Source of the DNA: a virus
DNA length: 20,006 nucleotides
IMG/VR virus record: IMGVR_UViG_3300009149_000377
Span: 1-20,006 of that record
Reading direction: 5' to 3' (one strand)
Made by a program: the position numbers and the translations under genes. This document shows positions 568 to 14,946 of this stretch, piece after piece (positions within the stretch are counted from its first letter, which is position 1; each line of letters begins with the position of its first letter). The notes below the pieces were generated by a model, which was given only the letters and a program-made list of their open reading frames with translations, ran no database searches and was not told the origin of the DNA.

Positions 568-598
568 CAAAGATACATAATTAATTCAAGAATGTCAA
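568..598 (-). promoter_or_regulatory. Bacteroidota-type promoter of the 98-aa gene
   Basis: On the minus strand TTG (596-598), 20 bases, TATCTTTG (568-575): a full match to TTG-N20-TAnnTTTG. It overlaps the last codons of the GIY-YIG gene and lies 19 bases before the ATG at 549. Confidence 0.75.
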
Positions 599-1414
599 AT
601 GTGACCAAGTTTTACCATTCTTAATATCATATATTGTTGGTCTGGACACCCCGAACCTTTTTGCAATGTTGGTGGTTGATATCTTATCTTCAGACAGTAA
701 CAACTTCTTGATTTCTAACACACTCTCTTCATCTAATTTACTATTACCGTTTGAAGCACCAAACTTCTTATTAGAAGGTGGTTTAATGTAATTACTTCTA
801 CCTTTACTCCACCCATTAGTTAAGTAACCTGTTAATTCTAACACATTCACTTTCTTATCTTCACCACATTTGGTTATCCAACAAGTACCGTATTGTGAGT
901 TATTGTTACCAGTGTAAGTACCAGATTTAGATTTACTAATATTGGATTTATGCTCATCTGTAAACGTTTTACCAGACCAAGAATAAGTGTGAGACCAATT
1001 TTTATGTTCACCAGATTGGACACGTTTATTATTAGTCTCGGTCATTCTCTTGGAGAATGTAACCCTAAACGATTCGTCAGTCTCCATCTTACGTCTGAAG
1101 GCGGCATTAGCATACTTGTGCCAACCACCCTCACCACCAACTTTCAAGTTAAGACATAAGTCTTCTTTAAGTAAATCGTTAGTTACCATTTCCGATTCTC
1201 GTTTCCTTAACTCTTCTCTACTATCACAAAACTCTAATATCTCTACGGAATGGTTATCTTTACCATGATAATTCATTGAACTCCATAACCGCTTACCAGA
1301 CCCCATATAACCATCTTCTAAGTTATGAGTTGAGTGCATACCAATATAGTATTTACCATTTAGGTTGTTGGTAGTCTTATAAATGTAGTGGTATTTCTTC
1401 TGTTTCCTAGCCAT
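581..1414 (-). CDS. GIY-YIG homing endonuclease with NUMOD3 and HTH DNA-binding modules
   Basis: A 277-residue free-standing homing-type endonuclease. The GIY-YIG nuclease domain is at the N-terminus (YIY at 10-12, YIG at 23-25, then a DGYMGSGKRL block at 34-43 typical of phage Seg-like enzymes). A NUMOD3-like stretch follows at about 146-165 (WSGKTFTDEHKSNISKSKSG). The C-terminus carries a helix-turn-helix, about 225-272 (TTNIAKRFGVSRPTIYDIKNGKTW), which would read DNA. Such enzymes cut an allele lacking the gene and spread by repair copying. It sits directly downstream of the tmRNA gene, so the tmRNA or the adjacent intergenic DNA may be its target. Its own phage-type TATTTATA promoter lies at 1431-1438, 16 bases before the ATG. 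The gene looks intact; the exact target is unknown. Confidence 0.9.
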   Translation of the reverse strand: MARKQKKYHYIYKTTNNLNGKYYIGMHSTHNLEDGYMGSGKRLWSSMNYHGKDNHSVEILEFCDSREELRKRESEMVTNDLLKEDLCLNLKVGGEGGWHKYANAAFRRKMETDESFRVTFSKRMTETNNKRVQSGEHKNWSHTYSWSGKTFTDEHKSNISKSKSGTYTGNNNSQYGTCWITKCGEDKKVNVLELTGYLTNGWSKGRSNYIKPPSNKKFGASNGNSKLDEESVLEIKKLLLSEDKISTTNIAKRFGVSRPTIYDIKNGKTWSHLTFLN

Positions 1415-2902: not shown

Positions 2903-3324
2903 TAAACTCTAATTTCTTGAGGTTCTGTTTCACCTACTGAATATGCCGCTTTGACAATATCACGTTCAGCCAACATTTCGTCACATGAGTACTTTTGTAA
3001 GATAAGTGTGAATGTAGCAAAATCTGGCTTACTTATCACCAACTTATCCTTGTCGTTATCCCAACTTATTTCAGCTAAGGTTTCATCGACAACCATAGAT
3101 TTATGGAGGTCATTCAACTGCTCAAATATAACCTCATTAACTGTGATTATAACGTCAGTCTTACCTAGATACCGAAGAATAGGTGTTGCTTTGGCTACCT
3201 TGGTAACAGTCTTTTGGGTGTTGCACCCTAGAACTTTAATGTTAACCTTATGTTCAAGGTCTGCGGCTGAGATTGCGTTCAAGAATTTATCTTCAACGTC
3301 TTTAAATAATTCGAAATATTCCAT
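2902..3324 (-). CDS. conserved-looking phage protein, 140 aa
   Basis: An unrecognised 140-residue protein beginning MEYFELFKDVEDKF. The start was placed at 3324, not at the ATG at 3447, because a perfect host-type promoter (3365-3395) and a CAAC-rich leader lie between them and the longer form would overlap dnaJ. The middle (ILRYLGKTDVIITVNEVIFE, then VVDETLAEISWDNDKDKL) has the layout of a family of phage proteins in which a short helix with a putative metal site follows a beta strand. No HExxH motif is present, so enzymatic activity should not be assumed. It is coupled to clpP by a TAATG overlap. Confidence 0.75.
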   Translation of the reverse strand: MEYFELFKDVEDKFLNAISAADLEHKVNIKVLGCNTQKTVTKVAKATPILRYLGKTDVIITVNEVIFEQLNDLHKSMVVDETLAEISWDNDKDKLVISKPDFATFTLILQKYSCDEMLAERDIVKAAYSVGETEPQEIRV

Positions 3325-3364
3325 TGTGTTGTTGTGTAAAAATTTTGTTGTTATTACTATAGAG

Positions 3365-3395
3365 CAAATATACCACAAAACTTCTACACAATCAA
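3365..3395 (-). promoter_or_regulatory. Bacteroidota-type promoter of the clpP unit
   Basis: On the minus strand TTG (3393-3395), 20 bases, TATATTTG (3365-3372): full consensus match. It lies just before and inside the dnaJ stop region, so the 140-aa gene, clpP and the 100-aa gene can be transcribed without dnaJ. The leader that follows (3325-3360) is CAACA-rich and unstructured. Confidence 0.8.
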
Positions 3396-3397
3396 CC

Positions 3398-4456
3398 CTA
3401 AGTCGTAACTTTATCAGCAATCGCTTGTAATTGTTCCAATAACTCACGTTCTTCGTCAGTAATTGCTGTCGGCATCTTCAACGTTGGGTAAACGTACATA
3501 TCACCAAACTTATCAGTAACTTTAGGTTCACCATTAGCCTGACGCTCAACCACCTTTAACCCCTTACCTTTAACTCTAAGTTCATCACCTTCGTGAGTCA
3601 ACTTTGGTATGGTTATTTTAATTTTACCACCAGATATTGTTGGTATTATTTTGGAGCAGCCTAAGACCATTTCAGCATAAGTCAACCCAACCCAATGTGC
3701 CAACGAGAATGGGTCTTTATCTGATACTCTAAATCTATCTTCTGGGATATGTTTTATTGCCACGATTAGATTCCCAAACACACCTTTACGCACTTCATTA
3801 CCTAGATTACCAAAGGTTATTGTATCACCATGTAATACACTTGGGATGATGTCTATTGTGGTTGTAAATGGTACTTGTTGGTACCCAGTAACATCGCAGT
3901 CAGTGCATGACTCTTCGAACGTTTCACCAGAACCATTACAGACACCACATGTTGTCATAACCAACATATTACCAAGACGCCTCTGTACTCTACCAGCACC
4001 ATTACATGAACTACATGTGGTAGGATTCTTACCACCTTTACCGTCACAGGTACCACATATCTCGTATCTACTGTATGTTATAGTACTTTCTCTACCGTTA
4101 TACACAGCATCCATCGACATATTCATGGTCACTCCAATGTGCGGATTAACACTAGTCGCTCTACGTCTGGCATTATTTTGTGCTGCTTGGAATTGTTCGA
4201 AGAAATCACTCATGTCATTATGCGTGAAGCCTCCACCACTCTTCATCCCCTCATGACCAAATTGGTCGTACTTAGCCTTCTTATCCGCATCACTCAGCAC
4301 CTCGTAGGCTTCTGCCGCCTCTTTGAATTTCTCTTCGTCACCACCCTCCTTATCTGGGTGATGAATTTTAGCTAGATTTCTATATGCTTTCTTAATCGCT
4401 TTATCATCGGCATCCTTCGCCACACCCAATACCTCGTAATAATCTTTCTTAGCCAT
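3398..4456 (-). CDS. dnaJ: DnaJ (Hsp40) co-chaperone
   Basis: A complete type I J-protein of 352 residues that would stimulate DnaK ATPase and deliver unfolded substrates. The J domain spans 1-70 with HPD at 33-35. A Phe/Gly-poor linker is followed by the four-part zinc domain with cysteine pairs C134/C137, C148/C151, C170/C173 and C184/C187. The fourth repeat reads CTDCDVTG in place of CxxCxGxG. The C-terminal substrate-binding domains follow to the end. Length is slightly below the usual 370-390, mainly from a short linker. No DnaK or GrpE lies in the window, so it presumably works with the host DnaK. It is first in the run leading to clpP and the tmRNA and has its own host-type promoter at 4474-4504. 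Confidence 0.95.
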   Translation of the reverse strand: MAKKDYYEVLGVAKDADDKAIKKAYRNLAKIHHPDKEGGDEEKFKEAAEAYEVLSDADKKAKYDQFGHEGMKSGGGFTHNDMSDFFEQFQAAQNNARRRATSVNPHIGVTMNMSMDAVYNGRESTITYSRYEICGTCDGKGGKNPTTCSSCNGAGRVQRRLGNMLVMTTCGVCNGSGETFEESCTDCDVTGYQQVPFTTTIDIIPSVLHGDTITFGNLGNEVRKGVFGNLIVAIKHIPEDRFRVSDKDPFSLAHWVGLTYAEMVLGCSKIIPTISGGKIKITIPKLTHEGDELRVKGKGLKVVERQANGEPKVTDKFGDMYVYPTLKMPTAITDEERELLEQLQAIADKVTT

Positions 4457-12491: not shown

Positions 12492-13979
12492 TTAATGTGG
12501 TTCAATTGACACAACGCCATCATCACCTTCACCGCACCCACCGTTCTGAGCCACTTTATTGTTATTTAATTTGGTGCAGTCATCAAATTTGACTTTACCA
12601 CCCTTACTCATATCATCCTCTTTGAGGTCAGGTAACGCATTAGCGTCAAATGCTATCGCACCACCAGAAGCAGATATACCACCAGAAGTGGTTGATTCTA
12701 CATTCAACTGAGCTTGTTTAAATAATACATTACCAATCTTATTCAAACTATCGTGGAATTGTACTGGTATCATCTTTTCAGCATCGTGTAGCGATTCGAA
12801 GTCGTGGTTGAATAGCGCACGTACTTTTCGATTCTTCAAATCAATCTTAAATAGTAAGTGACTCTCAATGATATTACGACCAGTTTCATCTTCTTGGGTT
12901 AATTGAACTAAATAATCTATTGTACCACCCTTACCAATTACTTTATCCTCTACACCTGCTACTTGGAAAATCTCTTCGTTAGTCCCAATTGGTAATCCGA
13001 TTATTTCTTGAAATGGGCTTTCAGAATCAGTTAACATACTGTCACCAGCATTTGCTATTTGTGTACTTGGGTCTAATTTATCATCGTGCCCCTTAAAAGG
13101 ACCTGCTCCCATTCCACCAGTGAATGAACCAGATGATGCTGCACCAGTATCTTCAGTAGTACCCCATTGTTTCAAGGTGTTGCCCTTTGCTTGAGTATAC
13201 CAATCTTGCCATTCTTTAAATTCTGGGTTCAGTACTTCAATTTGGTTACCAGTTATTGAGAATACTGGCATTTCACCGAATTTCTTGGCGAATTCCTTAA
13301 TATACCCATCTTCCGTTATAACCTTACCGATACGTGTTGTAAATTGCCGTCCAGTGAAAAATTCTTTATCATGTATTATAGATTGACCATCACCATTCTC
13401 TAAACTTGGTATGCGGTATTCCTTTCGGTTGCTCCAATCAACTTCTGCTCTGGTAGCTGGTAAATCCAACATACCGATTAATTGTTCTGGTTTAATACCA
13501 CCTTGTTCTGCCTCGCCTAACCTAACACTTTCAGATTTACCCTTCAAGTCACTATATAGACCTGTGATAGCCTTTTTGATGGCTTGAATCTTCTCGTTAT
13601 ATGTGTATTGGTAAAATGTCATACCTATTAACCCTGCATCTGTTAGAACTTGGAATAACTCACCTCTATGGATACCCATCTGTCTGAAGATAGGTGATAA
13701 CCCATGGCTGGTGTCATTATTCAACTCTGCCAAGATGAAGTCAATCACACCTTTAATAAGTTCCAAAAGCTCTACCGTAAGACCACCTTCATTGATTGTA
13801 CTTTCAAATTGTGGTTTCGGTTTATGACCTTGGAATTCCTTTTTGAAATTATCGGATATTGAGTCACCCAGACTCTCCCTGATTGCGTTCAGTTGTGAAG
13901 TCGTAATCCTAACCTTCCTTTTCAAGGGAATAGTCATCAATATGTTAGCTTGCGCCTCAGTAATTCTAATCTTCTTCAT
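12492..13979 (-). CDS. large probable virion protein, 495 aa
   Basis: A 495-residue protein. Its N-terminus holds two copies of a short motif, KIRITEAQANIL and KVRITTSQLNAI (residues 3-14 and 21-32), a type of N-terminal tag seen on several large-phage virion proteins and possibly trimmed during assembly. A Gly/Ser-rich stretch (GAASSGSFTGGMGAGPFKGH, near 285) separates two parts, and the C-terminus is Gly/Asn-rich (NNNKVAQNGGCGEGDDG). The function is not recognised; a structural role is inferred from size, composition and neighbours. Its ATG overlaps the stop of the HNH gene (TAATG). Confidence 0.75.
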   Translation of the reverse strand: MKKIRITEAQANILMTIPLKRKVRITTSQLNAIRESLGDSISDNFKKEFQGHKPKPQFESTINEGGLTVELLELIKGVIDFILAELNNDTSHGLSPIFRQMGIHRGELFQVLTDAGLIGMTFYQYTYNEKIQAIKKAITGLYSDLKGKSESVRLGEAEQGGIKPEQLIGMLDLPATRAEVDWSNRKEYRIPSLENGDGQSIIHDKEFFTGRQFTTRIGKVITEDGYIKEFAKKFGEMPVFSITGNQIEVLNPEFKEWQDWYTQAKGNTLKQWGTTEDTGAASSGSFTGGMGAGPFKGHDDKLDPSTQIANAGDSMLTDSESPFQEIIGLPIGTNEEIFQVAGVEDKVIGKGGTIDYLVQLTQEDETGRNIIESHLLFKIDLKNRKVRALFNHDFESLHDAEKMIPVQFHDSLNKIGNVLFKQAQLNVESTTSGGISASGGAIAFDANALPDLKEDDMSKGGKVKFDDCTKLNNNKVAQNGGCGEGDDGVVSIEPH

Positions 13980-14695
13980 TATGTAGTTTTGTTACTCAAA
14001 CCTGATTTCCAGAAGTTTCTCTTAATATCCCGATTAACTTTACTACATAATGGCTGTAGATTAGTGTAGTGATTTAATCTAATTATATCTTCTTCAGTTA
14101 TTGCTGAATCTAATGGTATTATATGGTCTATATCCCACCCATAATCGCATTCTCCGTTATATAAACCCCTATTATCCCAGTTCATCCACGGTTCCCATAG
14201 AAACTCTAGGTGTTGTTTAAATTCATCGAACGAACACCCAAGTATATCAGTTGTTTTAGATTTCTTAATATAGTTACGACTTTTAAAGGATGTTCTAATT
14301 AATGAGCTAATATTATGTTTCAGTTTATATAACGGGTCTATGTTAAACCTATTTTTAACATATATTCTACGTTTGGCTTGTAGCGTATCAACATTATCAT
14401 TGTAATACGCCTTTATCTTATCAACATTCTTTAATCTATACTCTTTACCCAATTGTCGTATCTTATCCTCATTATCCTTCCTATATGACGCTTGGTATGT
14501 TGCTACCATCTCTTGGTTTTTTTCTCTGTAGTTGGTAACCCACTCTTTAATTATATCGACATTCTTAACGTAATAGTCTTTAGTCTCCACCTTACGACAC
14601 GCCTTACACCTTCCTCTATACCCATCACTAGCTGACGTTTGTTTGTGGAATTCGATTAACTCTTTTGTGATATTACAAACGATACACTCTTTCAT
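13979..14695 (-). CDS. HNH homing-type endonuclease
   Basis: A 238-residue endonuclease. An N-terminal zinc ribbon (C4, C7, C30, C33) is followed by a long helical, Tyr/Asn/Lys-rich DNA-contacting region with repeats such as YRKDNEDKIRQLGKEYRLKN. The HNH core is at 187-224 (DIDHIIPL with H191, HYTNLQPL with N212, then KVNRDIK). The last 15 residues (IKRNFWKSGLSNKTT) are unusual: they copy the tail of the protein encoded just upstream (VKRNFWSSALSNKPT). The gene sits between the 82-aa gene and the 495-aa gene without disrupting either, ends in a TAATG overlap, and looks intact. Spread by homing into this site is likely. Confidence 0.9.
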   Translation of the reverse strand: MKECIVCNITKELIEFHKQTSASDGYRGRCKACRKVETKDYYVKNVDIIKEWVTNYREKNQEMVATYQASYRKDNEDKIRQLGKEYRLKNVDKIKAYYNDNVDTLQAKRRIYVKNRFNIDPLYKLKHNISSLIRTSFKSRNYIKKSKTTDILGCSFDEFKQHLEFLWEPWMNWDNRGLYNGECDYGWDIDHIIPLDSAITEEDIIRLNHYTNLQPLCSKVNRDIKRNFWKSGLSNKTT

Positions 14696-14697
14696 GA

Positions 14698-14946
14698 TTA
14701 TGTGGGTTTATTGGATAATGCTGAGGACCAAAAGTTCCTTTTTACCCACAACGCTTTAAATAATTGCGTTAGTACGTTCTTAGTGATTTGTACAACTTGG
14801 TCGTCCATCTCACGATTGTTCTTAAGCTTCTCCTTTACTATCTTGGCGATTTTATCTTCTAAATCCCTTGAATCTATTACATATTTCTTAGCAGCAGACT
14901 TATCAGCCTGACTCAATTCCTCTAAGATGCGTTCCTTTCTAGTCAT
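14698..14946 (-). CDS. hypothetical protein, 82 aa; likely HNH insertion neighbour
   Basis: A small helical protein of 82 residues ending MDDQVVQITKNVLTQLF and then ALWVKRNFWSSALSNKPT. The C-terminal part resembles the end of the 150-aa protein at 15843-16295 (EMDDQVLEEIT...YREVWVDEW), so the two may be paralogues. Its final 15 residues recur at the end of the following HNH protein. A TATTTATA motif ends only three bases before the ATG, which would give a leaderless message if the usual geometry holds. It is the first gene after the terminator at 14972-15000. Confidence 0.75.
   Translation of the reverse strand: MTRKERILEELSQADKSAAKKYVIDSRDLEDKIAKIVKEKLKNNREMDDQVVQITKNVLTQLFKALWVKRNFWSSALSNKPT

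Follow-up and report, generated by a model that had tools for sequence, protein, structure and literature searches.

The window analysed here, a 20,006-nt stretch of viral DNA (IMG/VR record IMGVR_UViG_3300009149_000377), carries on one strand a conserved phage gene encoding an 82-aa protein, a gene for an HNH endonuclease and a third gene, in that order (Table 1). The HNH protein is made up of an N-terminal CxxC zinc-binding part, a helical linker and, near the C-terminus, the HNH motif (DIDHIIP..N..NLQPLC..NR), whose residues were conserved across 40 homologues. In a profile search, PHROG 1035 (endonuclease VII) matched residues 1-225 (E=3.1e-18); Pfam HNH was detected in 8 of the 40 homologues and not in the window protein itself. 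The AlphaFold2 model had a mean pLDDT of 85, with values of 49-68 over the HNH part and the tail (59-68 in the HNH part, the tail having the lowest confidence). As to a beta-beta-alpha-metal fold in this model, a Foldseek search gave only a weak match to Hpy99I (E=2.2) at pLDDT 59-68 over the HNH part, and searching solved structures by sequence returned low-complexity or weak matches only. The HNH protein ends in IKRNFWKSGLSNKTT and the 82-aa protein in VKRNFWSSALSNKPT.

Table 1. Features of the split gene end and its surroundings, in window coordinates.
Feature	Positions	Strand	Support or remark
82-aa target gene (conserved phage gene), body and present 3' end	14698..14946	-	homologues in ~12 viral contigs
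Replacement 3' end of the 82-aa gene (KRNFWSSALSNKPT, stop)	14698..14743	-	starts at third base of GTA codon
Putative inserted element, ~718 nt (replacement gene end, TC spacer, HNH frame up to GGGATA)	14026..14743	-	comparison of empty L003 and L004 with occupied L007
HNH endonuclease gene, 238 aa	13979..14695	-	PHROG 1035, motif conservation, AlphaFold2 model
Orphaned native 3' end of the 82-aa gene (TTAAGAGAAACTTCTGGAAATCAGG...ACATAA), in-frame C-terminal tail of the HNH protein	13979..14025	-	near identical to L003/L004 native ends
Next gene, 495 aa	12492..13979	-	ATG overlaps native stop codon (TAATG)
Empty-site sequence of the L003 type: TTTGGGTTAAGAGAAACTTCTGG			

A first-pass annotation had noticed that these two ends resemble each other, and the resemblance was reproduced: the last 15 residues of the HNH protein were identical to the end of the 82-aa protein at 11 of 15 positions, both DNA copies end in ACATAAT (ACATAATCATG, which precedes the HNH start, and ACATAATG, which overlaps the next gene's start), and Ser codons read TCC in one copy and AGT in the other. 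The accompanying statement that the DNA differs mainly at silent sites held for about half of the differences, since 17 of 45 bases differ, of which eight are silent and nine fall in four residue-changing codons. The HNH tail aligned to the upstream sequence with a score of 63; when nuclease tails and upstream sequences were permuted, the highest score in 1,368 pairings was 52.

We then asked which of the two ends is native, using relatives found by scanning viral contigs with the 82-aa protein; no relative of the gene was found when genome contigs were searched. The gene occurs without a nuclease in L003-L006 and L032-L036, and in nearly all homologues the "MKKIRITEAQ" gene, the counterpart of the 495-aa gene of the window, lies directly downstream with no nuclease between them. 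The TAATG stop/start overlap is present in the empty L003, L004, L005 and L006 and was retained in the window after insertion. Native ends read LWVKRNFWKSGLSNKAT in L003 and LWVKRNFWKSGLKNRAS in L004. From TTAAGAGAAAC onward, the DNA of the HNH tail differed from the native end of its sister L003 at 4 of 45 bases, whereas the present end of the window's 82-aa gene differed from it at 17 of 45. The native match begins abruptly at TTAAGAG, after the nuclease's ...CGGGATA, and extends past the stop codon and on into the following gene; divergence of the 82-aa gene from the native sequence rises at TGGGT^. These comparisons of aligned DNA thus place the insertion point of the nuclease at TGGGT^TTAAGAG, within the final 16 codons of the 82-aa gene. 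It follows that the polarity proposed in the first-pass annotation, which took the HNH tail for a recoded copy, is reversed: the tail is native, and the divergent copy is the one in the 82-aa gene. Most native ends retain the bases GTT AAG AGA, and both replacement ends differ there, a pattern from two occupied sites that is suggestive only. Separately, both occupied phages have GTA as the Val codon before the insertion point (window 14740-14746), where most native ends have GTT, a difference seen in too few phages (n=2) to carry weight.

The second occupied site, L007, lies on a 152-kb contig from a different metagenome and encodes a 63% identical HNH protein at the same site, with the same NRDIKRNFW junction; the insertion junction is identical in the two phages. 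Its HNH tail (KSGLKNRTS) differed from the native end of its own sister, the empty L004, at 9 of 45 bases, and the end of its 82-aa gene, KKGFWTSGLSNKSS, is divergent (19 of 45 differences). Together, the empty sites and this second case agree with the earlier suggestion that an insertion rebuilt the gene boundary and left two versions of one gene end. In a tree of flanking proteins, the window paired with L003 (0.91 in FastTree, 78 in UFBoot, ultrafast bootstrap) and L007 with L004 (1.0 and 100, respectively). Each occupied phage is therefore sister to an empty one, and the nuclease must have been gained or lost at least twice. As the identity of the two HNH proteins is no higher than that of their best-conserved flanking gene, recent transfer between the window phage and L007 is not proven. 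At L039 (5147-6195), a GIY-YIG-like ORF (Pfam E=0.003) directly follows an 82-aa homologue and may be an independent nuclease at the same gene end.

The first-pass annotation named as its own refutation a tail that homologues at other loci also carry, which would make it an ordinary part of the enzyme. About 135 such homologues end around NR.IKRDN, followed by a few unrelated residues, and lack the tail, so this check did not refute the insertion reading. Likewise, the PHROG 1035 profile stops at residue 225, and the 13 residues by which the window protein runs beyond it are all captured target-gene sequence. Judged from sequence, the HNH tail is site-specific and not part of the enzyme. Could it nevertheless serve the nuclease, for instance by binding the partner of the 82-aa protein or by completing DNA recognition? 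Both HNH tails are open and protein-like in two diverged phages, and in the predicted AlphaFold model the conserved final helix appears to extend into the tail. A functional role of this kind is decidedly unlikely given the absence of the tail from every homologue elsewhere, and each tail tracks the native end of its own lineage (KSGLSNK.T versus KSGLKNR.S), as target DNA would. Moreover, at L013, L237, L083 and other loci with the arrangement described below, the orphaned piece lies outside the nuclease frame altogether.

We also considered that the nuclease sits within a group I intron or an intein, splicing of which would join LWV to KRNFWKSGLSNKTT. The exact insertion point and the coding-sequence target would suit such an element, but no Rfam intron match was obtained, and the 718-nt insert is almost wholly coding, with too little other sequence to hold a ribozyme. 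Nor is the insert an in-frame intein, since the upstream gene is complete and terminates at its own stop codon ahead of the HNH gene. We give splicing hardly any credence.

Recurrence of this arrangement was surveyed at 137 nonredundant nuclease genes by comparing the sequences that directly adjoin each gene on its two sides, counting split copies in the same orientation that reached a cut-off of 28 bits or more. Split copies of one gene end flanked a minority of the loci, 12 of the 137, compared to none among 816 permuted pairs (Fisher 5e-11). L007 and L112 fall below the cut-off, yet have the same arrangement. This strict version replaced an earlier survey with 1.5-kb flanks, which was too noisy (67/137 versus 56/270 permuted). 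The orphan piece on the far side of the nuclease was C-terminal at most loci and N-terminal at L086 and L049, and N-terminal versions and antisense orientations exist among related loci. Intact targets identified with profile support were a Nudix protein (L013), a HAD protein (L237), a primase (L104), a sigma factor (L233) and IF3 (L265); that of L083 is a RuvC-like protein. At L336 (2491-4784), a HAD-family gene (intact at 3277-3894) has a nuclease gene on either side, an HNH gene accompanied by an orphan C-terminus and a GIY-YIG gene accompanied by an orphan N-terminus. The cases all came from metagenomic contigs: none of 13 loci checked in a phage-record collection had split gene ends, and HNH relatives in bacterial and archaeal genomes and phage records had no flanking split gene except L288, a Bacilli MAG contig in which an HNH frame lies between two intein-like C-terminus copies (1-132 and 1616-1726; YDIIGVEDNHN.VAN.MVVHN).

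One such case, L112, lies on the contig that also carries L003. Here, another HNH protein of the family follows a 708-aa virion gene ending in NTITAELSIDF and itself ends in KRGKINAELSIDF. In the phage of L007 the 708-aa gene is uninterrupted and ends in LELSIDF. The L112 nuclease tail has TCAATAGACTT in common with this LELSIDF-type native end, whereas the present end of the 708-aa gene is AGCATCGATTTT. An empty site for the virion gene was found (L116), and three assemblies of the locus were concordant (L110, L112, L113). That agreement bears on the possibility of an assembly artefact or a chance resemblance, which might be raised for findings from metagenomic contigs only. We attach next to no weight to it: the window junction recurs in another metagenome (L007), the two copies are divergent and not identical, and the permuted controls were far exceeded.

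Several other arrangements were seen at or near these nucleases. In the phage of L007, an HNH gene abuts the 3' end of the same HAD gene as at L336, with a decayed fragment beyond it (L335). In L044 (863-1020; IMGVR_UViG_3300035660_000202), an orphan terminase N-terminus precedes an HNH gene, and the terminase gene that follows is interrupted in its Walker A motif by ~50 nt; this interruption folds into a hairpin of 21 bp (-36 kcal/mol, z -7.3) and has in-frame stops, its removal would restore GGTSASKTFS, and it recalls the bypassing of T4 gene 60. The window also encodes a phage tmRNA (1460-1836, minus strand) with the tag DDNTVSTTKYFLNELEAEFNGKLALTA, and a GIY-YIG homing endonuclease gene (581-1414, minus strand) lies ~46 nt past the tmRNA 3' end; no split copy of the tmRNA was found beside this gene.

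If the upstream gene end is a replacement, it should look foreign and the orphan native. The clearest case was L083, compared with its relative L294: amino acid identity was 84% for the body and 88% for the orphan end, and 60% for the intact gene's own end, which was below the body (Fisher 0.0007) and below the orphan (Fisher 0.003). This L083 replacement has KKEN.DM.DAY in common with another lineage. Synonymous codon agreement between L013 and L278 was 47/77 in the body, 20/34 in the orphan and 7/23 in the replacement. Pooled over four cases, agreement with relatives was 16/50 in the replacement, against 39/65 in the orphan and 327/638 in the body (Fisher 0.0045 and 0.012). At L237 the replacement was closer to L309 (0.72) than the body was (0.48), and the orphan was not clearly native-looking because the nearest relative, L308, is itself interrupted. 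Where a nuclease-free ortholog permits comparison, the orphan thus looks native and the end of the intact gene foreign. The downstream version is native in the window, L007, L013 and L083; the foreign character of the upstream version is clear in L083 and is supported by the pooled codon test. In the window the upstream end is divergent and no donor lineage was found, the closest native end to SSALSNKPT being that of L005 (14/45 differences).

Recoding of the gene end to escape cutting, as the first-pass annotation put it, is a plausible idea, but codons of the replacement and native ends agreed at 20 of 50 positions, which equals random synonymous choice (18.3 expected). Random synonymous draws showed no excess that would point to active silent-site recoding, so a foreign or long-diverged source suffices to account for the silent divergence, without selection. 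The earlier interpretation is, overall, partly supported. The same agreement is what drift alone would give, and another explanation is that the insertion made a local duplication of the gene end whose upstream copy then drifted, with nothing imported and nothing recoded by selection. With no donor phage found for SSALSNKPT, the window replacement could be a diverged local duplicate of this kind. We regard local duplication as rather unlikely, as the L083 replacement is 0.60 identical to close relatives, against 0.84-0.88 for body and orphan, and resembles another lineage, and the L237 replacement is nearer to L309 than its body is. Furthermore, as the functional copy under selection, the present end would be expected to drift at a lower rate than the orphan, not at a higher one.

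Our preferred reading, which we consider quite probable, is that a free-standing HNH homing endonuclease gene inserted in the last 16 codons of a conserved gene and supplied a replacement end. The original right half of the 82-aa gene was kept as the in-frame tail and stop codon of the nuclease, overlapping the next start as before, and the upstream gene carries a divergent version of the lost 15 codons and so is still complete. The predicted HNH enzyme would cut the intact site in empty phages, and recombination, with the gene body as left arm and the native end as right arm, would copy in the replacement end and the nuclease. Because the insert splits the putative recognition site, whose right half is missing from the replacement end, the occupied genome would be immune to cutting. 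The replacement end would do the job that splicing does in introns and inteins, and was probably imported with the element from another phage lineage, as in fungal mitochondrial mobile ORFs.

To insert, homing genes usually depend on an intron, an intein or a landing place between genes. A spare gene end would let a nuclease gene tolerate insertion in coding sequence, and selfish genes could in this way invade without splicing. Such exchange would also explain orphan gene fragments beside phage nucleases and provide a route for single gene ends to move between phage lineages. The target site is marked precisely here, and the empty-site DNA is the predicted substrate. More broadly, we lean towards a recurrent class of splicing-free phage homing elements, in which an HNH (or in some cases a GIY-YIG) nuclease brings along a foreign end to replace that of the gene it cuts, while the native end is orphaned or captured as a tail; the products would be hybrid genes across phage lineages, some of essential type (primase, sigma factor, IF3). 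This class is apparently undescribed: no phage precedent for gene-end replacement was found in the open-access literature, subscription papers being mostly outside the search, and replacement gene ends are not described in the available parts of a T4 homing endonuclease review (PMC2988022) or of a survey of phage nuclease genes (PMC10448857).

Among known systems, the window HNH protein shares N-terminal CxxC pairs and the DH..P..N..N..C motif with PHROG 1035 "endonuclease VII" / HNH (PF01844) proteins. In the available parts of the T4 review, free-standing homing endonucleases (seg, mob) are intergenic and cut hundreds to thousands of bases away, and mobA and mobE split genes (PMC2988022). 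As far as that source goes, the window element resembles them in being a free-standing phage nuclease between conserved genes, without an intron, the HNH family being among them, and departs from them in its insertion inside coding sequence, at the site split by the insert. An intergenic insertion of the T4 type that leaves the target unaltered was rejected, since the insert lies within the 82-aa gene. By analogy, the window element would work like the gene-end-exchanging mobile ORFs (mORFs) of fungal mitochondria, known from Allomyces macrogynus atp6 and Glomus sp. atp6, atp9, cox2 and nad3 (PMC3630166). Their order is gene body, inserted foreign C-terminus, endonuclease ORF and orphaned native C-terminus; the native end matches close relatives at 91-98% and the inserted end at 64-81%, and protein identity stays high (PMC3630166). 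As expected of an element of the mORF type, the endonuclease ORF of the window lies between two versions of one gene end, the downstream version is native, and presence or absence differs between close relatives (window and L007 occupied, L003 and L004 empty). The fungal atp6 case involves a LAGLIDADG enzyme in mitochondrial hosts (PMC3630166), whereas the window, from a tailed phage, has an HNH enzyme belonging to the endonuclease VII group, and its related loci differ further in including N-terminal versions and antisense orientations; and, unlike in the fungal mORFs, the native end in the window is fused in frame as the nuclease tail, with the next start codon still overlapping.
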